DNA of 64,000 bases from Candidatus Krumholzibacteriota bacterium (GTDB lineage: Bacteria; Krumholzibacteriota; Krumholzibacteriia; Krumholzibacteriales; WJIX01). Every line of letters begins with the position of its first letter. Position 1 is the first letter of the stretch. The notes beneath the pieces were generated by a model. It saw nothing but the letters and a program-made list of their open reading frames with translations, had not been told where the DNA came from and did not search any database. Location: contig JAXHNR010000002.1 in the NCBI GenBank assembly GCA_034520215.1, positions 470,642 through 534,641 of the forward strand. The letters run 5' to 3'. This document shows, piece by piece, positions 38,877-51,870 of this stretch. Made by a program: the position numbers and the translations under genes.

Positions 38877-40424
38877 TCAGGGCATATGCAGCGGGGCATC
38901 AGGTCCGGTCGGCAATCCCAGAATCATCCAGATAGTCAGCAGTATCATCCAGAATATACCTAAAGCAACCGAATATGGCAGCATGGTGGCTATAATTGTG
39001 CCGATTCCGTATTTTTCGTTGTATTTCTGGGCGAAAGCCACTATAAGGGCGAAGTAACTCATCATGGGAGTTATTATGTTCGTAATCGAATCTCCGATAC
39101 GGAAAGCGGCCTGTGTAATTCCCGGATGGTATCCTAGAATCATGAACATAGGGACAAATATAGGAGCCATTATAGCCCATTTGGCAGAAGCGCTTCCCAT
39201 GAAGAGATTAATGCCCGCTGAGATTAGAACAAAACAGATCAGCAGGGGGATTCCTGTAAAGCCTATATTTTTTAGAAGTTCAGCTCCGTTAATCGCGAGC
39301 AGAACTCCGATGTTACTCTCTTTGAAGTAGTAGACAAACTGTCCGGCGAAGAATACCAGAACTATATATCCGGCAAGGCCTTTCATAGATGCGGTCATCT
39401 GCTTGATAACATCTTTGTCGTTTTTAATTGTTCCCACTGTTATCCCGTAGGCGAGCCCGGGCACCAGAAAGAAGATCAGTATAGCTGTTATCAGCCCATC
39501 CATAAACGGGGAATGAAGAATAGATCCTGTTTCCGGATTACGAAGCACACCACCTTCAGGTACGACCATAAGCAGAAGGACCGCCAGAACGACTCCTACA
39601 GATATACCGGCCCAGATCAACCCTTTCTTTTCGCGGCTCTCGATGTGGTCGAATTCTTCAGTTTCTCCGCAGTATTCACCCAGGCGCGGTTCAACGAATT
39701 TTTCGGTTACCCATGTTCCGACTATTACTACCATGAATGCGGATGTGAACATGAAGTAGAAGTTAACAGCCGGGTTGATCTGAATTCCTCCCTCTATAAG
39801 ACTGGCAGCTGATTCTGACAGGCCTGCCAGAATCGGATCTACAGAGCCGATAAGAAAATTGGCGCCGAACCCTCCGCTCACTCCGCAGAAAGCCGCGGCC
39901 ATCCCGGCAAGCGGATGTCTTTTAATAGCGGCGAAAACCATTGCTCCCAGTGGAATAAGTACTACGTAACCCGCGCTTGAGGCGAGATGAGAAAGTACAC
40001 CCGCGGCTACTACAGAGGCTGTAACAAGCCGTTTCGGGGCTGAAGTAACCATATGTCTGAGGAGGGCCGATATCAGGCCGGAACCTTCCGCCACTCCGAT
40101 CCCGATCATGGCCACCAGCACGATACCGAGAGGGGGGAAGTAGACAAAGTTATCGGTAGCCTTGGAAAAAATAAATCTCAAACCCTCGGAATTCAGAAGA
40201 CTTATACCTCTTATTGTATCCCCGGTTCCAGGATGTACCGCGGCCGACCCGTAGCGGTAGACGATTTCAGATACTATTACCACTATCAGCGCGAATATGG
40301 CAAAGAGGGTAGCCGGGTGAGGGAGCTTATTTCCCACTTTTTCAATATTATCCAGCGACCGCATCAGCAGTGATTCTTTTTTTCTTCCGTTTTTTCCGGC
40401 CTTAGAACTTCTAAGATTCATCAC
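38877..40424 (-). CDS. AbgT-family transporter
   Basis: 515 residues with 12 or more hydrophobic segments. Typical of the p-aminobenzoyl-glutamate transporter family: KLPHPATLFAIFALIVVIVSEI, VYFPPLGIVLVAMIGIGVAEGSGLISALLRHMV, the re-entrant GGFGANFLIGSVDPILAGLSE segment and INLFMGSASAKWAIMAPIFVPMFMILGYHPGITQAAFRIGDSITNIITPMMSYFALI. Members move aminobenzoyl-glutamate or export sulfonamides; the true substrate here is unknown. The ATG follows a gagaaag site. Tandem with msrAB but 194 bases apart. Confidence 0.92.
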   Translation of the reverse strand: MMNLRSSKAGKNGRKKESLLMRSLDNIEKVGNKLPHPATLFAIFALIVVIVSEIVYRYGSAAVHPGTGDTIRGISLLNSEGLRFIFSKATDNFVYFPPLGIVLVAMIGIGVAEGSGLISALLRHMVTSAPKRLVTASVVAAGVLSHLASSAGYVVLIPLGAMVFAAIKRHPLAGMAAAFCGVSGGFGANFLIGSVDPILAGLSESAASLIEGGIQINPAVNFYFMFTSAFMVVIVGTWVTEKFVEPRLGEYCGETEEFDHIESREKKGLIWAGISVGVVLAVLLLMVVPEGGVLRNPETGSILHSPFMDGLITAILIFFLVPGLAYGITVGTIKNDKDVIKQMTASMKGLAGYIVLVFFAGQFVYYFKESNIGVLLAINGAELLKNIGFTGIPLLICFVLISAGINLFMGSASAKWAIMAPIFVPMFMILGYHPGITQAAFRIGDSITNIITPMMSYFALIVAFAQKYNEKYGIGTIIATMLPYSVALGIFWMILLTIWMILGLPTGPDAPLHMP

Positions 40425-40618: not shown

Positions 40619-41746
40619 TTATTCCCCGTCAAACAATTTAAGGTACTCCGCGTAACCCTCTTTCTCCAGTTCATCCTTTGGAATAAAACGCAGCGCGGCT
40701 GAATTGATGCAGTACCTCAATCCAGTTGGGGGAGGCCCGTCCTGAAAAAGATGCCCCAGATGTGAATCGCCCTTTTTGCTTCGCACCTCCGTGCGTATCA
40801 TATTGTGGCTTCTATCGGGTTTTTCCACAAGATTCTCCGGTTCCAGAGGCCTGGTAAAACTCGGCCAGCCCGAGCCGGATTCAAACTTGTGCGCCGAGGC
40901 GAACAGGGGTTCGCCACTTACCGCGTCCACATATATTCCCTCCCGCTTATTATCCCAGTACTCATTTTGAAAGGGCGGCTCCGTTTGATTCTCTTGAGTA
41001 ACCCCGTACATAAGGGCGGTTAATTTTTCCTTACTTTTGTTTTTGCCTGAAGCTTCTCCGGAAGGACCTTTTTCCGCCTTCCGTTTGCTTTTCTCCGGCC
41101 CCCAAAGCTTGTACGCATTGTTCCATATTTTCTCCAGGGCTCGGTCCCGCCCGGAACCCTCCCTATACTGCCGGTAGCGCAGGGGGCATTCAAGGTGGTA
41201 GTTCTGATGATATTCCTCCGCCTGCCAGAACCGGTCCAGCTTTTCTATTTTGGTGGCTATGGGCCGGCTGAAGATTCCGGACTCCCTTATCCTGTCCAGG
41301 GAATATTCAGCCAGCTTTCTTTGCCGTTCATCGTGATAGAATATGGCGCTGGTATACTGGGTGCCCCGGTCTGTGAACTGACCGCCGCTGTCTGTGGGAT
41401 CGATATGCCGCCAGAAGACTTCAAGCAGTTTTCTATAATCGGCCGCGGTGGAATCGTAGTATATCTGAACCGCTTCTAGATGACCTGTCTCTCCGGAACA
41501 AACCTCCCGGTAGGAGGGGTTTTCTGTTTTTCCACCGGTATATCCCGATATTACTTTTACTACACCATCGACCTTTTCAAAATCTGCTTCCAAACACCAG
41601 AAGCATCCCCCCGCGAAGGTAGCTGATTTCATTTTATCCTTGCTGTTCATTGGTTTTCCCGTCCTTTCATACGAAGAGGCGGCACTTTGTAGTGTAAAGG
41701 CTGTCAAGACTGAAATAAAGAAGACGATCGATATTTTCTCTGTCAT
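40619..41746 (-). CDS. msrAB: Secreted methionine sulfoxide reductase MsrA-MsrB fusion
   Basis: 375 residues with a signal peptide ([24 protein letters not shown]). MsrA is at about 35-195: [32 protein letters not shown] with catalytic Cys of GCFWC. MsrB is at about 240-360: [37 protein letters not shown] and catalytic Cys in [13 protein letters not shown]. The CxxC zinc pairs of some MsrB proteins are missing. It should repair both Met-sulfoxide epimers in exported proteins. The ATG at 41746 has AAGGAGG upstream; a longer frame from 41824 would pre-empt the signal peptide. Confidence 0.94.
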
Positions 41747-41794
41747 AATGGAGCCTCCTTGACGCGGAGATAAAGAAGGTTGGCCACTCGTGGT

Positions 41795-41824
41795 AAATAA
41801 CCTTATATTTAAGGGATATGTCAA
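41795..41824 (-). promoter_or_regulatory. Probable msrAB promoter
   Basis: On the minus strand TTGACA (41824-41819), 18 bases, TTATTT (41800-41795), about 50 bases before the msrAB start. The -35 directly follows an inverted copy of the 12-base element end (41825-41836). So this promoter abuts the repeat instead of standing 13-15 bases from it. Confidence 0.55.
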
Positions 41825-42354: not shown

Positions 42355-42687
42355 ATGCAGATTCTGATCAAAATAATCATGAGTGTGGCTATTATTCTCA
42401 CCGCCACGGCGATCGGAAAGAAACTTCCGTCCACTGCCGGCCTGATCGGCGTCATGCCTCTTACCGGCGCTCTTGTCCTCGTGTGGATATATATCGAAAA
42501 TGAAGGGGATCAAAGAATCATGCGGAACTTCACCAAAGGAGCTCTTTGGGGGATCGTACCCAGCGTTCTTTTCTTCCTCGTGGCCCTCTTCTGCTTTAAG
42601 AGGAATTTTTCGCTCCCTGTTGTTCTCGTCTCAAGCTTCGGCGCGTGGCTGGCAGCGGCGTTTCTGCATCAATGGATTCTAAAATGA
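42355..42687 (+). CDS. Small integral membrane protein, DUF3147-like
   Basis: 110 residues with three or four hydrophobic segments: ILIKIIMSVAIILTATAI, LIGVMPLTGALVLVWIYI, GALWGIVPSVLFFLVALFCF and LPVVLVSSFGAWLAAAFLHQWIL. The pattern resembles the DUF3147 family, whose function is not known. The ATG follows a weak gacaagaagacaa site. No neighbour suggests a role. Confidence 0.65.
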   Translation: MQILIKIIMSVAIILTATAIGKKLPSTAGLIGVMPLTGALVLVWIYIENEGDQRIMRNFTKGALWGIVPSVLFFLVALFCFKRNFSLPVVLVSSFGAWLAAAFLHQWILK

Positions 42688-42931: not shown

Positions 42932-45900
42932 ATGAAAGAAGTGAAGGGGTTAAGGGGAGCCGCTGTATTTTTGTCTCTATCCGCGTTTTTGATTTTCTCC
43001 TGTTCCGACCAAAAACCGGTTGAAAATAATCATTCCGCGCCGGAGAATATCCCGCCTAGCAGCTCCGGGGACAGCTCCCGGACGATACTTTTTTTTGATT
43101 TCGAGGACAAAGAGAGAGGCCACTGGACTATTCAAACTCCCGGGAAAGACCGTAAGGATCTGCTTTTCACGGAGATTGTGGAGGCAACCAAATACAATAA
43201 CAGCGAAAAAATTCTTCATTTCGGTCCGGTGAAGGGAGAAAGCAGCGGTGAAATGATTTTTGTATTCGAGGAGAACGGAATAGAGAACTTTCCGCTGACC
43301 CGTGATATTCAGATGGCCTGGGCGTGGAATGTTTCCAGGGTCGAAGATATGAATGGGGTCTGGATATTTCTCAGTATGCTGGATACCAGGACTGGCAAGA
43401 GTTTTCGCGTACGGGCCGCGAATCACACAAAGTATATGCACGACTGCATGGAGACCTATGATCCGCCTAGATGCTGGTGTTTCAACAGCAGGTCGGTCTA
43501 TGATTTTGTCTGGAGAAGGTACGGGCCGTTCAAAAAAGGGGATATTATAGTTAATAAAATCGGCATGGCAGCATATGGCGCCGAAAGTATCGACGCGTGG
43601 GTCGATAATATATGGGTCGGCCACGGACCGCCGCCGGAATACGTCAATACTATTTCCGACAGCTCCAGGATAAATGTTGAAGCAGAATCAAAGATGACCG
43701 GGTTTTCGTATGCTTATATCGATCATGATGACATCCCCGACCGGGTGGAGGTTTACCGCGAAAGGGCGGACATATTTATCAATCCGCATTCCGACGAATC
43801 TTCAGGCGGAGGGGAAGGCAGGATCAGTAACGTGCGCGTAACGCCGGATATGAGTATTAAATTGGGATCCCAGCGCGGGGACGCGGTAGTGACACCCGCC
43901 GATCTTAACGGTGACGGGCATTCTGATCTTCTCTTCCAGTTCGACGACCTTTACGGGAACGTTTGCTTTATTAACGATTATCTGAAGGGATCGTTCAGGG
44001 AGTTTGATGGCGGCGCGCTGAACTGCCCGGGAGAACACGGTTCAGGCACAGCTGCGGCGGATATGGACGGTGACACGGATCTGGACATTTTTATGTTTAA
44101 CGGATTCAGGAGACGCGGCAATTTCGGCGGAGTGAGGGTGTTCAGGAACGAGGGGGGCTTAAAGTTTACCGACTGGACGGAGAAATCCTATTTGCTTTCA
44201 GAAGGTTCTTTCGGAGGTGTATTCGCCGACTTTAACAATGACGGGTTTAGCGACCTTTTAATAAATTACAAGCCGGTTGTATCGGGCAGGCGGCGGGGAA
44301 TGATAAATTTCAACGACGGGACCGGCAGGTTCAAACCCTCCCTTGAAGCACTGAAAGATCCCGGCCCAACTCACTTTAATGTCTGCGCAACCGGCGATTT
44401 TGACAACGACGCGGACCTTGATATTTACTGCGCGTCCGATTTTATCGCAGGTTCGAGCGCCGTGCCTTCCACCATGATGTTCCGGAATAACGGTGACGGA
44501 ACTTTTCATGATGTAACGGATAGTTCGGGAGCGGGATGCCGGGCTGAAAACAGCGGGGTGGTGACCGGGGATTTCAATCTGGACGGGTTTGTGGATATAT
44601 ACCTTATTAACGGAAAAGGTTCAGAATCGATACTTTATCTTAACAACGGAGACGGCACTTTCAGCGAGACGGAAAGATTTACATTCCTGATGTTCAAGGG
44701 AGCTGCCAGAGCGGCGGCCGCTCTCGATTTCGACCTGGACGGCGACCTCGACCTGGTAATGCTGACATCTGAAGGCGGACGGCTGTCTATAAGAGAAAAT
44801 ATCGGGGATCCCGATAATTTCCTTGAAGTGCGGCTTAGAGGAGAGGGAAAGAACAGATTCGGTATAGGGGGAAAAGTATATATTTACCAAGCGGGGCATT
44901 TGGATAACAGAAAGCATCTTATCGGCTACAGGGAGATAACACAGAACGCCTGCCGCGAAACGAAACGGCCCCCGGTGGCCCATTTCGGTCTGGGAGCTCA
45001 CGAACTGGTAGATCTTAAGGTAGTGTTTCCACCCGCGGGCGGCGGAGATCAGGTGGTAAAAACCATCGAGAACGTTAAAAAAGGGAGTTTCCTGAATATC
45101 TGCCAGAGCGAATCTTTCTTTGGAAAGGTCTTCTGCGGCCACAGGGCCGATCAAATAAGAGACAATTTCGTCTATTATCTCTTCAGGATTCCTCTCTGGT
45201 TTTTCTCACTCCTGGTATTCTCTGTAGTATTGGCAGCCGGAGTATGGATAAGGGACGCTGTGGGGGCGGCAAACAAAAGACTGGCGAGAATAACTGCAGT
45301 TATTGCCGCCGGAATACTCGCCGTTCTTCTTGTTTACCGCTCTTTTGCTGTGGGGATTGCTGTAATTATAACGGCTGTGGCTATTATTATCTTTATCTAC
45401 CGCCTGGAAGAGTTTTTCCGTGGATTCTTTATGTCATCCTCGCGGAGGAGTAAACTGGAGGAACTTCTTTTTGACGATCTCTCACAGGCCATTCATACTG
45501 AGAAGAAATTTTCCTTTCTCGGCGATATGGCGCGAAAAGACAGCGAATTGGATTATGAGCAGATCCGGAAAGATTTCAAATCACTTGATAATATGACATC
45601 GGCAATGAGGATGATATCACCCGCCGACTCAGACTGGAGGGTCATCAGGAAGGAGATTGAAAAAATAAAGGAGATCAGCGGCCGCCTGATCAGTGACGGG
45701 AAGGAAAAATCCCCGGCATCCCCGGACCTAAGGATATTCAAAAACTCGCTGGAAAGACTTAATTCGATGCTGGAAGATTACCGCCTGAAGCTGAGAATGA
45801 AGTACTCGATCAAATTCATGGATGAATGGAACGCCCTCAAGGGAGAATACAGGACTCAGCTTAAGGAGGAACAAATAGAGCTGGAAGAGGAATTCCCGGA

Positions 45901-46258
45901 TGATATAGGTCGGCGTTCGGCGCATCTTCTTCACGATGAGTTCAGGCATATCTTTAAGAATATGTTCGAAAATTCGATTCACGCTCTAAGAGACGTTCCT
46001 GAAAAAAAGATCACGGTCAGCGGCCGGTACGAGGTCGATTATCTGGTTCTAAGGTGGCGGGACAGCGGCGAGGGGCTTCCCCCGGGGATGGAAGATGATA
46101 TATTCATCTCGCCTGTCAGATCCAATAAACCCGGCGGAATGGGAGAAGGGTGTTACCAATCGGGCAGGATACTGGCCAGAAGAGGAGGACGTATAAGGGC
46201 CGAGAATACTCCGGGGGGATCGGGAACTGATTTTATTATGAAGATAGTGGTGTTTTAG
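42932..46258 (+). CDS. FG-GAP/ASPIC beta-propeller protein fused to a membrane histidine-kinase domain
   Basis: 1108 residues. An N-terminal export signal has a possible lipobox (LIFSC, Cys 24). A beta domain precedes six FG-GAP calcium-type motifs at about 323-606 (DLNGDGHSD, DMDGDTDLD, DFNNDGFSD, DFDNDADLD, DFNLDGFVD, DFDLDGDLD). An ASPIC/UnbV domain follows at about 629-715 (RFGIGGKVYIYQAG...PPVAHFGLG). Three membrane helices occupy about 751-830, then comes a coiled, helical linker. A HATPase domain ends the protein: N box FKNMFENSIHAL, G1 DSGEGLPPG, G2 GGMGEGCYQSG. The phospho-His is unclear; AIHTEKKFSFLGDMA is a candidate. It probably senses outside and signals to the regulator 18 bases downstream. 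Confidence 0.85.
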   Translation: MKEVKGLRGAAVFLSLSAFLIFSCSDQKPVENNHSAPENIPPSSSGDSSRTILFFDFEDKERGHWTIQTPGKDRKDLLFTEIVEATKYNNSEKILHFGPVKGESSGEMIFVFEENGIENFPLTRDIQMAWAWNVSRVEDMNGVWIFLSMLDTRTGKSFRVRAANHTKYMHDCMETYDPPRCWCFNSRSVYDFVWRRYGPFKKGDIIVNKIGMAAYGAESIDAWVDNIWVGHGPPPEYVNTISDSSRINVEAESKMTGFSYAYIDHDDIPDRVEVYRERADIFINPHSDESSGGGEGRISNVRVTPDMSIKLGSQRGDAVVTPADLNGDGHSDLLFQFDDLYGNVCFINDYLKGSFREFDGGALNCPGEHGSGTAAADMDGDTDLDIFMFNGFRRRGNFGGVRVFRNEGGLKFTDWTEKSYLLSEGSFGGVFADFNNDGFSDLLINYKPVVSGRRRGMINFNDGTGRFKPSLEALKDPGPTHFNVCATGDFDNDADLDIYCASDFIAGSSAVPSTMMFRNNGDGTFHDVTDSSGAGCRAENSGVVTGDFNLDGFVDIYLINGKGSESILYLNNGDGTFSETERFTFLMFKGAARAAAALDFDLDGDLDLVMLTSEGGRLSIRENIGDPDNFLEVRLRGEGKNRFGIGGKVYIYQAGHLDNRKHLIGYREITQNACRETKRPPVAHFGLGAHELVDLKVVFPPAGGGDQVVKTIENVKKGSFLNICQSESFFGKVFCGHRADQIRDNFVYYLFRIPLWFFSLLVFSVVLAAGVWIRDAVGAANKRLARITAVIAAGILAVLLVYRSFAVGIAVIITAVAIIIFIYRLEEFFRGFFMSSSRRSKLEELLFDDLSQAIHTEKKFSFLGDMARKDSELDYEQIRKDFKSLDNMTSAMRMISPADSDWRVIRKEIEKIKEISGRLISDGKEKSPASPDLRIFKNSLERLNSMLEDYRLKLRMKYSIKFMDEWNALKGEYRTQLKEEQIELEEEFPDDIGRRSAHLLHDEFRHIFKNMFENSIHALRDVPEKKITVSGRYEVDYLVLRWRDSGEGLPPGMEDDIFISPVRSNKPGGMGEGCYQSGRILARRGGRIRAENTPGGSGTDFIMKIVVF

Positions 46259-46276: not shown

Positions 46277-47683
46277 TTGTTGCAGTCGAAAAATGTTCAC
46301 AAACACAGGGTATTGGTAGTTGACGATTCAGCCGATTTCAGAGAAAGGATAATCGATTCTCTTTCCGGAAACTATGAGGTTTCCGCCGCCGTGGGCTGGC
46401 GCGACGGAAGAAAAAAATACAGGGATTATCTGCCGGACGTTCTCCTTCTTGATTACAAGCTGGAAGACGGCTATGACGGGCTGGATGTAATCAGGGAGCT
46501 GAAGAAAGAAAGAAACGACAACCTGATAATTATCTTCATATCGGCTCATCTTAAGGAAACGGTTATTGAGGCGGCCAGAACGGCCGGCGCCGACGATATC
46601 ATATCGAAGAGGACATCCGGCAAGGAGCTCGAGAGGAAGATATCCGAAGCGATTGATAACAACCTGGCCAGGAGAATCCGCATACTTGATGATATCAAGA
46701 GAAAAGACTATGTCGTGGAGCCGGTATTCGAATCTCCGGTTATGAAGAAGATCAAGGGGCGGATAAGAAGGTTTATGCATCTTGACGAGAACATTCTTAT
46801 CACTGGGCCTCCCGGAGCCGGCAAGGGTGTCCTGGCATTCTGGATACATTGCAGAAGTATCAGATCGCAGGGGCCCTACTACGTGGAATCTCTGCCCGGT
46901 CTGACTCCCGATCTTTTCTCCAGGGAATTCAGAGGGCACGTAAAGGGTTCCTTTACGGGAGCCAGCAGCGATATGGAAGGTCTGCTCGATCTCGCTCACA
47001 TGGGCACGCTGGTGCTGGATGAGGTCGGTGACTTAGAGCCGAATGCGCAGAAGCTTCTGTTGAATATAGTTGAACACAGGCCGTTTCGGAGGATAGGCGG
47101 AGAGGAAAAATTTTATAAAAACGTAAGGTTTATAGCTCTAACCAATAAGGACCTGGAAGAAGAGATAAGAAACGGGAATTTCAGGGAAGACCTCTATCAC
47201 CGCCTAAAGACATTTCATGTGCACATCCCCCCCCTCGCTGAGAGGAAAGAAGATATACCGGTACTGGCTGAAGCAATCCTTAAGAGGGAATGCAAGAGAA
47301 GGAAGGTAAACGTAGATCAGATCGATTCCGCTCTAATCGATCTGATGCTGAAATACGCCTGGCCCGGCAATGTCCGCGAACTCGAGGAATGGATCAAGAA
47401 CGGAGTGACCTACACAAATTCAGGAGTTTTAAAGACTGAGAATATTCCCCAGGCGTTGACAAGAGCGGGAAAAATAGAAAATGGGTTGCCCCGCGGCATT
47501 TTCTCTCTGGAATATCATGATTTTAAATCGAAAGCGGTGAAGTCCTACCTGGAAAACCTTCTGAAGGCGACCGGGGGGGATATGCAGGCCGCCGCCGATC
47601 GGGCCGGAATACTAAGGCCCGCGCTATACCGGCTGTGCAGCAGACACAACGTCAAACCGGCGGATTACCGTAATCTGTCGTAG
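46277..47683 (+). CDS. Sigma-54-dependent response regulator, NtrC family
   Basis: 468 residues. The REC domain is at 10-130 with Asp in VLLLDYKLEDGYDG. The AAA domain is at about 155-385: Walker A TGPPGAGKGVLA, the sigma-54 loop GSFTGA (for GAFTGA), Walker B TLVLDEVGDLEP, then FREDLYHRL and WPGNVRELEEWI. A C-terminal Fis-type HTH reads MQAAADRAGILRPALYRLCSRHNVKPADY. It should activate sigma-54 promoters when phosphorylated. The TTG start follows gaaagga. It is cotranscribed with the FG-GAP kinase, its likely partner. Target promoters are not visible in the window. Confidence 0.9.
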   Translation: MLQSKNVHKHRVLVVDDSADFRERIIDSLSGNYEVSAAVGWRDGRKKYRDYLPDVLLLDYKLEDGYDGLDVIRELKKERNDNLIIIFISAHLKETVIEAARTAGADDIISKRTSGKELERKISEAIDNNLARRIRILDDIKRKDYVVEPVFESPVMKKIKGRIRRFMHLDENILITGPPGAGKGVLAFWIHCRSIRSQGPYYVESLPGLTPDLFSREFRGHVKGSFTGASSDMEGLLDLAHMGTLVLDEVGDLEPNAQKLLLNIVEHRPFRRIGGEEKFYKNVRFIALTNKDLEEEIRNGNFREDLYHRLKTFHVHIPPLAERKEDIPVLAEAILKRECKRRKVNVDQIDSALIDLMLKYAWPGNVRELEEWIKNGVTYTNSGVLKTENIPQALTRAGKIENGLPRGIFSLEYHDFKSKAVKSYLENLLKATGGDMQAAADRAGILRPALYRLCSRHNVKPADYRNLS

Positions 47684-47865
47684 CTTAAAGGACTCTTGGT
47701 GAGCGCTGTCCTTAAGTATCGCAATAAAGGGGCTGAAAGTAGATTGAAACAATAATAATATAGGTGTATAAATTTATCAGGCGGTAAAGGTCAAGTAAAA
47801 GAGTGAAAAGAGAATGTTCTGCTGTTCGAGTACAGTCTTTTTTTCATAAATGGAAAGGCCGGTTG

Positions 47866-50800
47866 ATGGAAAGTAAAGATAGTTTTACGATCGAAGGAAA
47901 ATACGATATCTCCGATACGGTCAATATTGACCGTCTCGAAGATATTCTGAAGAGCTTTGCCCGGGCGAACGGGTATTCATGCGAGCTTTACTCAAACCCC
48001 GATTGCCAACTTCTGATCAGCACGGGTATGCCTGTTATATGCGGCGGCTTCCACCGGAAATATTCGGAATCCGGAGAAAAATGCAGAAAGAGCAATCTCA
48101 AACTGAATAAAAAAATCAAAAAGGGGAAGAAAGCTGTAATAAGCAGATGCGATAACGGTTTGATCAGAGGTCAAGCCCCGATAGTGATAAACGGGGTGTA
48201 TCTGGCAGATTTGATTATCGGCCCGGTTCTGTTTGAAAAACCGGAGCCGGAATGGTTCAGAAAACAGGCGAAAAATTACGGGTATGACTCGGAAAAATAC
48301 CTCGAGACGCTTGAAGAGGTTAAGGTTGTGAAAGAGGAAGATTTTCGCGAATCTCTATCTTTCCTGAGGGAGATAATTGTAATACTGGCAGAGCGGGGAT
48401 TGTCTGAAATCCAGAGTTCTCTGAAGGTACGGGAAGCGCAAGAGAGTAAGAATAATCTTTATACTACCCTCCGTTCGATCGGTGAGGCTGTTATTTCCAC
48501 CGACATGGAAGGGCGAATAGCACATATGAACCCTGTCTCGGAAAATCTGACAGGATGGAGTATAGAAGAGGCGAGAGGGAAGCAGCTCACGGAAGTTTTC
48601 CATATTGTTAATTCCAGGACAGAGGAAAAGGCGCCCAACCCGGTTGATAAAGTTCTTAAAGAAGGGGTGGTAGTGGGGCTGGCCAACCACACAAAATTAA
48701 TAGCCGGCGATGGCAAGGAGTTCCAGATAGCAGATTCTGCATCGCCGATAAGAGACGAGAACGGGAATATAACAGGAGTAGTTCTCGTATTCAGAGATGT
48801 TACGGATGAATATAAGAAAAGCCAGCAGCTTAAAGAAAACCTGGAGCTTCTCTCCGCCACTTTTCAAAGCATTCAGGATGGAGTGAGTGTTCTCGAAAGG
48901 GATCTGACCATAAGTTACGTTAACCCGGTTATGGAGAAGTGGTACGGGGCTAAAATGCCTCTGGTTGGAGGTAAGTGTTATTTCTGTTATCACGGCAGGG
49001 ATAATCCATGTGAACCGTGCCCTTCCCTGAGGTGCATGGAAACGGGAAAAAAGGAATTCGATATTGTCCCCGGGCCCCCGGAGCCCGATTCACCCGTTGA
49101 GTGGATTGAATTGTACAGTTATCCGATCATAGATGAGGAAACTGGAAAGGTGTCCGGAGTGGTAGAGTTTGTCCGAGATATTACCAAACAGAAGAGGACT
49201 CGGGATAATTTGAGCCGCAGCAAGAAGATACTTGCCAGAACAGAGCGCATCGCGAATGTCGGCAGCTGGGAATGGGATATTGCCGGGGACAGCGTTACCT
49301 GGTCAGATGAACTTTTCAGTATTTTCAATATTGATCCGGAAGAAGAACCGCCCAGCTGGAAGGAACATCCGTCTCTGTATCATCCGGACGATATGGAGCT
49401 GCTGAAACGCGCGGTTGAAAAAGCTGTATCGGAAGGTGTTCCCTATGAACTGGAGCTTCGAGCCCTTCCGAGAGGGGGCGGAACCAGGATTTGCCTGTCC
49501 CGCGGATTCCCCGACACGGATTCGGATGGCAATGTTTTTCGTCTTTACGGATCGTTTCAGGATATTACAGAGCTGAAGATAACCAAGCAGAAGCTGAGGA
49601 AAAGCCGGGATAACCTCGAAACCACTCTTAATTCCATAGGTGATGCTGTTATTTCCACCGACACGGAAGGGCGAATAGCGCATATGAACCCTGTAGCGGA
49701 AAATCTGACGGGATGGAGTATAGAAGAGGCGAGGGGTAAACAGCTCACGGAAGTTTTCCATATCGTTAATTCCAGGACAGAGGAAAAGGCGCCCAACCCG
49801 GTTGATAAGGTTCTTAAGGAGGGGGTGGTAGTGGGGCTGGCAAACCACACAAAATTAATAGCCGGCGACGGTAAGGAATACCAGATAGCCGACTCCGGGT
49901 CGCCCATCAGAAACACTGAAGGTGAAACTACGGGAGTGGTTCTCGTATTCAGAGATGTTACCGAAAAATACAGGATAAGGGAAGAGCTGCGCCGCAGCGA
50001 GGAGCTGTTAAGTCTTGCCATGTCAATAAAGAATGAAGGCATTTGGGACTGGGACTTAACCACCGATGATGTGTACTTCGATCCCCGGTACTACAAGATG
50101 GCTGGATACCGGGTGGATGAATTCCCCCCGCGCCTGGATGAGTTTAAAAAAAGGGTTCACCCTGATGATATAGAATATGTAATGAACCGGGCCAGTGAGC
50201 ATCTGGAAGGAAAGATAGACAACTTTAATGTGGAGTTCCGATTTAAGAGAAAGGATGGAGGCTGGATGTGGATTCAGGGGAGAGGCATGGTAGTTGAGCG
50301 GGATGAAAAAGGATCCCCAACCCGCTTCGTCGGAACCCATACTGATATAACGGAACGAAAATATGCCGAGGAGGCGCTCAAGGAGAGTGAAGAAAAGTAC
50401 AGAACCCTTGTTTCCTCGATGAGTGATATGATATTCCTGCTCGACTGTGATGATCGGTTTCAGGAAATACACTCTAAACCGGGTAATGTCCTTTTAGCGG
50501 AGCCGGAAGAATTTCTGGGAAAGAGGATTCAAGAGGTAATGCCATCTTCTATAATCGATATGTATGAGAAATCAGCTGAGGAAGTAAGAAGAAGCGGCGA
50601 AACGCGGAGATTCGAATACCCTCTCAGAATAGGGGACAGGGATATGTGGTTCCTGGCAACCTTGGATCTTCATAAAGACGAAGAGAGTGTGGTCGCCGAT
50701 ATACGCGATATAACCGAGCGTAAGGAGGCGCAGGAGGCACTTCAGAGGATGCAGAAGCTGGAGAGTGTAGGTACACTGGCAGGAGGAATAGCGCATGACT

Positions 50801-51870
50801 TCAACAATATACTTACCGGGGTATACGGCAATATCGAACTTGCCAGGCTGGAGCTGTCCGAGGATCATCAATCGTATAAGCATATTGAGACCGCCCATAA
50901 ATCGCTGGAGAGGGCCAGGCACCTGACCAAACAGCTTCTGACTTTTGCCAGGGGAGGAGAGCCGCTGCTGGAATCTGTTAATATTAAGGAGCTTGTGCGG
51001 GATTCGGTTCGATTCAACCTCAGCGGGAGCAGTATTGAAGCGAGTTTGAACCTGCCGGACGATCTGTGGATGGTTAAAGCGGACAGAGGACAGATGAGCC
51101 ACGTGTTGGCAAATCTTATTATTAACGCGAAGGAAGCGATGTCGATGGGCGGGGTTATTCACATAGAAGCGGAAAATGTTGAAGAAGCAGGAGGAGAATG
51201 CGCTTCCCGTTTATCAGGGGATTATGTCATGATTACCGTAAGGGATGAAGGTGTCGGAATTCCCGAAAAGTTTCTCGGGAGTGTGTTCGACCCCTATTTT
51301 ACCACAAAAAAGGCGGGAAGTGGCCTGGGACTGTCGATAGCTTACAGTATAATAAACAAACATGACGGGCATATCAGCGTTCAATCCGAACCGGGAAAGG
51401 GCGCTGCTTTTGCCCTGTTTCTCCCGGCCGAAAAGTCTTCCGAAATAGAGGGAAAAGAAGAAGCGGAGACAGACAGAAAACCCTCAAAAAATCTGGGGGA
51501 GGTGCTTCTGATGGATGACGAGAAGGCGGTGAGGGAGGTTTCAGCCAGGATGCTGAAAGCAATCGGGTATAATACCGATTTGGCTGTTAACGGGGAGGAA
51601 GCGCTCGAAAAGTATATCTCGGCATTGAAGAAAGGCAATCCATTTGACGTGGTTATCGCGGATCTGACAGTCCCCGGCGGAATGGGCGGCAAAGAACTGA
51701 GCGAAAAGATTCTCACGGCAGATCCGAACGCGAAAGTTATAGTTATAAGCGGTTATTCAACCGATCCGGTTATGGCCGGTTACACTGATTACGGGTTTGC
51801 GGGCCGAATCGTAAAGCCGTTCGAGATAAAAGATTTAAGGCGTGAGATTACGCGTGTAATAAAAGAGTGA
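47866..51870 (+). CDS. PocR-PAS hybrid histidine kinase
   Basis: 1334 residues, no membrane helix. Order: a PocR ligand-binding domain (14-170; ICGGFHRKYSESGEKCRKSN, VINGVYLADLIIGPVLF), then six PAS domains to about 955. HisKA (TLAGGIAHDFNNILTGVYGNIELA), HATPase (N box NLIINAKEAM, G1 DEGVGIPE, G2 GSGLGLSIAYSII) and a C-terminal REC (VLLMDDEK...VIADLTVPGGMGG) follow. The third PAS has a Cys cluster (CYFCYHGRDNPCEPCPSLRC). PAS 1 and PAS 4 are nearly identical. The ATG at 47866 follows GGAAAGG; a GTG at 47803 is in frame. PocR domains are thought to bind small hydrocarbon derivatives; the ligand here is unknown. Confidence 0.9.
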   Translation: MESKDSFTIEGKYDISDTVNIDRLEDILKSFARANGYSCELYSNPDCQLLISTGMPVICGGFHRKYSESGEKCRKSNLKLNKKIKKGKKAVISRCDNGLIRGQAPIVINGVYLADLIIGPVLFEKPEPEWFRKQAKNYGYDSEKYLETLEEVKVVKEEDFRESLSFLREIIVILAERGLSEIQSSLKVREAQESKNNLYTTLRSIGEAVISTDMEGRIAHMNPVSENLTGWSIEEARGKQLTEVFHIVNSRTEEKAPNPVDKVLKEGVVVGLANHTKLIAGDGKEFQIADSASPIRDENGNITGVVLVFRDVTDEYKKSQQLKENLELLSATFQSIQDGVSVLERDLTISYVNPVMEKWYGAKMPLVGGKCYFCYHGRDNPCEPCPSLRCMETGKKEFDIVPGPPEPDSPVEWIELYSYPIIDEETGKVSGVVEFVRDITKQKRTRDNLSRSKKILARTERIANVGSWEWDIAGDSVTWSDELFSIFNIDPEEEPPSWKEHPSLYHPDDMELLKRAVEKAVSEGVPYELELRALPRGGGTRICLSRGFPDTDSDGNVFRLYGSFQDITELKITKQKLRKSRDNLETTLNSIGDAVISTDTEGRIAHMNPVAENLTGWSIEEARGKQLTEVFHIVNSRTEEKAPNPVDKVLKEGVVVGLANHTKLIAGDGKEYQIADSGSPIRNTEGETTGVVLVFRDVTEKYRIREELRRSEELLSLAMSIKNEGIWDWDLTTDDVYFDPRYYKMAGYRVDEFPPRLDEFKKRVHPDDIEYVMNRASEHLEGKIDNFNVEFRFKRKDGGWMWIQGRGMVVERDEKGSPTRFVGTHTDITERKYAEEALKESEEKYRTLVSSMSDMIFLLDCDDRFQEIHSKPGNVLLAEPEEFLGKRIQEVMPSSIIDMYEKSAEEVRRSGETRRFEYPLRIGDRDMWFLATLDLHKDEESVVADIRDITERKEAQEALQRMQKLESVGTLAGGIAHDFNNILTGVYGNIELARLELSEDHQSYKHIETAHKSLERARHLTKQLLTFARGGEPLLESVNIKELVRDSVRFNLSGSSIEASLNLPDDLWMVKADRGQMSHVLANLIINAKEAMSMGGVIHIEAENVEEAGGECASRLSGDYVMITVRDEGVGIPEKFLGSVFDPYFTTKKAGSGLGLSIAYSIINKHDGHISVQSEPGKGAAFALFLPAEKSSEIEGKEEAETDRKPSKNLGEVLLMDDEKAVREVSARMLKAIGYNTDLAVNGEEALEKYISALKKGNPFDVVIADLTVPGGMGGKELSEKILTADPNAKVIVISGYSTDPVMAGYTDYGFAGRIVKPFEIKDLRREITRVIKE
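48487..48803 (+). repeat. PAS-coding direct repeat, first copy
   Basis: About 317 bases that recur 1158 bases downstream (49645-49961) without gaps and with high identity. It encodes the first PAS domain of the hybrid kinase. The middle (EARGKQLTEVFHIVNSRTEE onward) is identical in protein for about 65 residues. Confidence 0.85.
49645..49961 (+). repeat. PAS-coding direct repeat, second copy
   Basis: Second copy of the 317-base segment, encoding the fourth PAS domain of the same protein. Differences lie mostly near the two ends, and many are silent. A recent internal duplication or gene conversion explains this better than old paralogy, because the other PAS domains of the protein are highly diverged. 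Confidence 0.85.

Follow-up and report, generated by a model that had tools for sequence, protein, structure and literature searches.

The window, the 64,000-nucleotide stretch of DNA analyzed here, derives from a 2.6-Mb genome and carries on its forward strand an open reading frame (42932-46258, +) that runs from ATG to TAG with no internal stop and encodes a protein of 1,108 amino acids. From N to C terminus, this single frame holds a signal peptide, possibly of the lipoprotein type, a beta-domain, a beta-propeller, an ASPIC/UnbV domain, three membrane helices, and a cytosolic HATPase domain. Eighteen bases after its stop codon, as noted in an earlier sequence-only reading of the locus, a TTG codon at 46277 starts the gene of an NtrC-like response regulator (46277..47683, +) with a receiver, a sigma-54 AAA+ domain, and a Fis-type HTH (Pfam Response_reg, 1e-16; Sigma54_activat, 1.5e-44; HTH_8, a weak match below its cutoff). 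The next gene (47803-51870, +) encodes a PocR/multi-PAS hybrid kinase, two PAS segments of which share 81% protein and 80% DNA identity over 135 residues, suggesting a fairly recent duplication internal to that protein. Upstream, on the opposite strand, two genes look by eye like a fused MsrA-MsrB methionine sulfoxide reductase with an export signal (40619-41824, −) and an AbgT-type p-aminobenzoyl-glutamate transporter (38877-40424, −). Orthologues of the propeller kinase were found in eight other genomes of the same order, either full length at 32 to 63% identity (G004, G022, G008, G007, and G015) or as fragments at contig ends (G003, G017, and G001).

The exported N-terminal region described in the sequence-only reading stands with two amendments, since the signal peptide (residues 1-24; 42932..43003, +) ends in a lipobox-like LIFS-C and is followed by an additional conserved domain. 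Similar lipobox-like ends are present in L006, L009, L010, and L011 and absent from L007, L008, and L012. The additional domain (residues 49-236; 43076..43639, +), delimited by orthologue conservation and by beta strands in the model, is beta-rich and contains 17 positions that are invariant across the orthologues, Trp residues among them; it had no match among PDB sequences, and at a pLDDT of 63 the full-length model is too weak for its fold to be named. The propeller proper (residues 258-625; 43703..44806, +) is recognized by Pfam (FG-GAP_3, PF13517; 2.6e-32, six stretches, above the cutoff), by its fold, and by motif statistics. Six D-x-[DN]-x-D-x-x-x-D motifs start at residues 324, 377, 433, 489, 547, and 599 and span residues 324-607, with a spacing of 52 to 58 residues, i.e., one per blade. 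The six motifs of DxNxDGxxD type claimed earlier are thus well founded (the mean in 5,000 shuffles was 0.08, and no shuffle had more than 3), and nearly all are retained in the orthologues. The ASPIC/UnbV domain (residues 629-725; 44816..45106, +) stays below threshold in the window protein itself (PF07593, 21.1 bits against a cutoff of 23.4) and exceeds it in the orthologues L007 and L009 and in L071 from a second clade; a family profile built here, with the window kinase itself in the seed, gave 2.9e-44. In the full-length AlphaFold2 model, which was made from nine input sequences and has modest confidence (pLDDT 63.5), the best structural match to the propeller/ASPIC part was CRTAC1 (PDB 9etn; Z 20.1, 344 residues). 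CRTAC1 was also matched by sequence alone (3e-11), independently of the model.

Given six conserved blades of the calcium type and their extracellular placement, which is itself deduced from the topology discussed below, the propeller might be a direct calcium sensor in which calcium occupancy is itself the signal. We consider this unlikely. In many cases, the calcium bound by blades of the Dx[DN]xDG type has a structural or adhesive role (PMC3123361), which makes calcium as the signal the less likely reading; moreover, the conserved N-terminal domain with its invariant Trp suggests another ligand, and many related propeller kinases carry fewer calcium-type motifs than the window kinase. The role of calcium in this propeller is probably structural. 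The earlier proposal that a calcium- or ligand-sensing propeller serves as the input of a two-component system therefore holds in part: a CRTAC1-like outer part does sit on a kinase next to a regulator gene, and calcium, or any given ligand, is at most a putative signal.

The outer half is followed by three transmembrane helices (residues 755-775, 780-803, and 805-833; 45194..45430, +), assigned from model helices and hydropathy; hydropathy recovers the full set in L006 and L007 and two of the three in the window kinase. The first inner loop is basic, as had been pointed out together with the three helices, and since the odd number of helices and this loop both fit, we infer a topology with the propeller outside and the kinase inside. 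The HATPase_c domain (residues 1002-1105; 45935..46246, +) scores well above its cutoff (PF02518; 5.1e-10, 40.2 bits against 26.4), has N, G1, and G2 boxes with intact ATP-site residues, and matches kinase catalytic (CA) domains structurally with Z values of about 19 to 20. Domain searches and structure prediction thus recovered FG-GAP_3, HATPase_c, and both the CRTAC1 and kinase folds, in agreement with the sequence-only reading. With HATPase_c, the three boxes, and a conserved candidate His upstream of them, the protein classifies at the sequence level as a sensor histidine kinase of the GHKL superfamily.

The phosphorylated His had been described as not obvious, and a conserved His was to be looked for in the linker at about residues 860-900. 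A query with the kinase region yielded at least 53 members whose match reaches the His region. When the last 420 residues of these 53 members were aligned without an anchor, His855 (LSQAIHTEKKFSFL; 45494..45496, +) was invariant (53/53) and N1014 nearly so (52/53); the invariance is read from this unanchored alignment, an earlier one having been anchored 24 residues before the His. The columns with at least 90% His, Asn, Asp, or Gly are His855, N1014, D1044, G1046, G1048, G1069, G1071, G1073, and three further C-terminal glycines, and the ATP-site residues N1014, D1044, G1046, G1048, G1071, and G1073 are kept in at least 52 of the 53 members. Among the orthologues, His855 is the sole invariant His of the cytosolic part. 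The strong candidate thus sits just before the stretch proposed for the search. Two other histidines, at 998 and 1006, were rejected, as neither is conserved, and a HisKA_3-like LLFDDLSQ, considered as an H-box with a replaced His, was dropped once His855 was found to be invariant. The case for kinase activity and for the role of His855 is one of conservation, and on these grounds His855 is probably the phosphorylated histidine.

His855 lies in a noncanonical phosphotransfer region (residues 836-957; 45437..45802, +). HATPase_c was matched in 23/23 relatives, whereas HisKA, HisKA_2, HisKA_3, HWE, and related Pfam families were matched in 0/23 at E values up to 10, in searches where the HMMER filters drop most weak matches; the other Pfam scans of the window kinase and its relatives gave no such match either. 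The His and the Asn of the N-box are 158 to 196 residues apart, compared to 110 to 114 in a reference set of eight ordinary kinases, two of them encoded in the window and six in related genomes; the phosphotransfer region thus exceeds the usual length by about 60 residues. In a model of the cytosolic portion (pLDDT 86), which was built from the anchored alignment, the catalytic domain is preceded by four main helices. A profile comparison, whose signal is weak, aligns the canonical two-helix hairpin with the third and fourth of these (helices C and D), neither of which contains a conserved His. As His855 is outside the hairpin that corresponds to the canonical DHp position and HisKA matches are absent, His855 could be merely structural, with phosphorylation occurring elsewhere or the protein acting as a phosphatase or scaffold devoid of kinase activity. 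This appears improbable to us, because the cytosolic half has no other conserved His and the ATP-site residues are invariant, unlike those of degenerate kinases. If His855 is indeed the phosphoacceptor, it is tempting to speculate about a new kinase class. Its phospho-His would be carried by an additional helix, some 60 residues upstream of the customary position, and its ATP-adjacent hairpin would be His-less; such an arrangement would resemble either a fused version of the CheA-like separation of phosphotransfer and dimerization or a DHp duplicated in tandem within a single chain. We regard this idea as tentative and rather doubtful, and it is not our main claim, because the helix comparison is weak. 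A profile comparison of helices A-B with helices C-D, made to detect a tandem duplication, gave no signal.

The fusion of propeller and kinase is conserved down to 32% identity, as full-length orthologues exist in independent assemblies. That a misassembly or a frameshift error joins two genes can be dismissed: the reading frame is single, the GC content is even along the gene, and the same layout recurs in these assemblies and in other phyla. In every one of the six orthologues with enough contig downstream, the next gene encodes an NtrC-like regulator. An adjacent NtrC-like regulator was found for 10/10 ASPIC-type members tested, with L184 as an 11th, and for 22/53 members across the whole family. 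In the orthologue neighborhoods, kinase and regulator are the only shared genes, and a conserved neighborhood was accordingly rejected as a clue to the signal. The identities of regulator and kinase broadly covary (76 and 63% in G004, 56 and 41% in G001, and about 40 and 32% in more distant genomes), suggesting that the two genes form a co-inherited cassette in varying surroundings.

The sequence-only reading had named the partner a sigma-54 response regulator. The domain type supports this, the window regulator has GSFTGA in the position of the GAFTGA loop, and rpoN is present in the genome, which makes the link plausible. However, the loop is degraded in several orthologues. The GAFTGA loop of NtrC-type activators contacts sigma-54; it is slightly changed in the regulators of L006, L013, and L143 and lost in those of L007, L009, L010, and L011, whose AAA+ domains are otherwise retained. 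Because the loop that contacts sigma-54 is lost, these four regulators may act without sigma-54, and a switch away from sigma-54 inside one orthologous group is possible. Sigma-54 activation thus does not appear to be general among the orthologues, and the name “sigma-54 regulator” describes the domain type reliably, but not the function. A search of the window for −24/−12 target promoters yielded none: matches with up to two mismatches were rarer than in shuffles (6 versus 19 expected), and the one site near the gene, at 42650 (two mismatches), was rejected as not above chance.

The layout extends beyond the orthologues, with counts that are lower bounds in that some searches scored few candidates per genome. 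A second clade of the same class has the same layout (L071, plus L081, which is cut by a contig end), and three proteins from another phylum (L143, L144, and L184) have an extra second N-terminal region, followed by an FG-GAP propeller, ASPIC, three membrane helices, and the kinase. The other Pfam-scanned members mostly carry FG-GAP-like propellers without ASPIC; Reg_prop-type propellers occur in L070 and, weakly, in L140. Further propeller kinases of the family are found in other lineages (L145, L146 [G272], L141 [G288], and L142 [G147]), where the residues around the His differ in part (RHE, GHG, and GHD). In the tree, the window clade is grouped with full support. A single origin of all ASPIC kinases has a p-AU of 0.11 with long branches, and the tree does not decide for one fusion. 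The same fusion beside sigma-54-type regulators, for which other genomes were searched, is therefore present in orthologues, in the second clade, and in proteins of other phyla. The layout had also been thought not to be described: a search of open-access literature found no paper on FG-GAP with a histidine kinase and ASPIC or a propeller, but the layout is not unique and belongs to a wider subfamily. Judged by these sequence comparisons, the propeller-bearing kinases form a previously unlisted subfamily with members in several lineages outside the class. We see this subfamily as the larger finding, because its phosphotransfer region has no Pfam HisKA-type match and is some 60 residues longer.

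Together, these observations make it quite likely that the gene pair encodes a membrane-spanning sensor kinase of the two-component type together with a dedicated NtrC-like regulator, with ligand binding by the propeller controlling a kinase that acts through His855. The secreted half, consisting of the N-terminal beta-domain, a seven-bladed calcium-type propeller, and ASPIC, would face the periplasm or the outside. The ligand bound by the propeller and N-terminal domain would probably be a surface of protein or glycan, and calcium would keep the blades rigid. Binding would be relayed via the three membrane helices to the cytosolic kinase, which would autophosphorylate on His855; from there, the phosphoryl group would move to the receiver domain of the neighboring regulator. 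The phosphorylated regulator would then alter transcription, here probably at sigma-54 promoters.

To our knowledge, bacterial propellers of the integrin/CRTAC1 type mostly have no known function. Here, one of them is joined to an intracellular output that can be read, which makes its ligands testable through kinase activity. Since profile libraries miss the phosphoacceptor domain of propeller kinases, such systems are likely underannotated in uncultured phyla, and the propeller kinases provide a test case for the flexibility of the phospho-His position.

Among known proteins, CRTAC1 (cartilage acidic protein 1) shares the outer layout, a propeller of Dx[DN]xDG blades and then an ASPIC domain, but is secreted and lacks the membrane helices and kinase that the window protein has in frame. 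Integrin alpha-chains resemble the calcium-blade propeller in fold (Z about 17), yet they belong to a eukaryotic adhesion receptor without an enzymatic domain. Canonical HisKA/HATPase_c kinases such as ZraS, HK853, and FixL have in common with the window kinase HATPase_c, the ATP-site motifs, and gene pairing with an NtrC-family regulator; they differ in their HisKA-type H-box and shorter His/N-box spacing. The closest functional parallel is found in the Bacteroides Reg_prop hybrid two-component systems, in which a periplasmic propeller sensor that binds oligosaccharides is linked across the membrane to a histidine kinase (PMC3243724). The window kinase is not one of them, as Reg_prop (PF07494) and YYY (PF07495) had no match in it at E values up to 1; the Bacteroides hybrids use another propeller family, a YYY domain, and a fused receiver and AraC HTH, whereas the system described here signals to a separate NtrC-like regulator.
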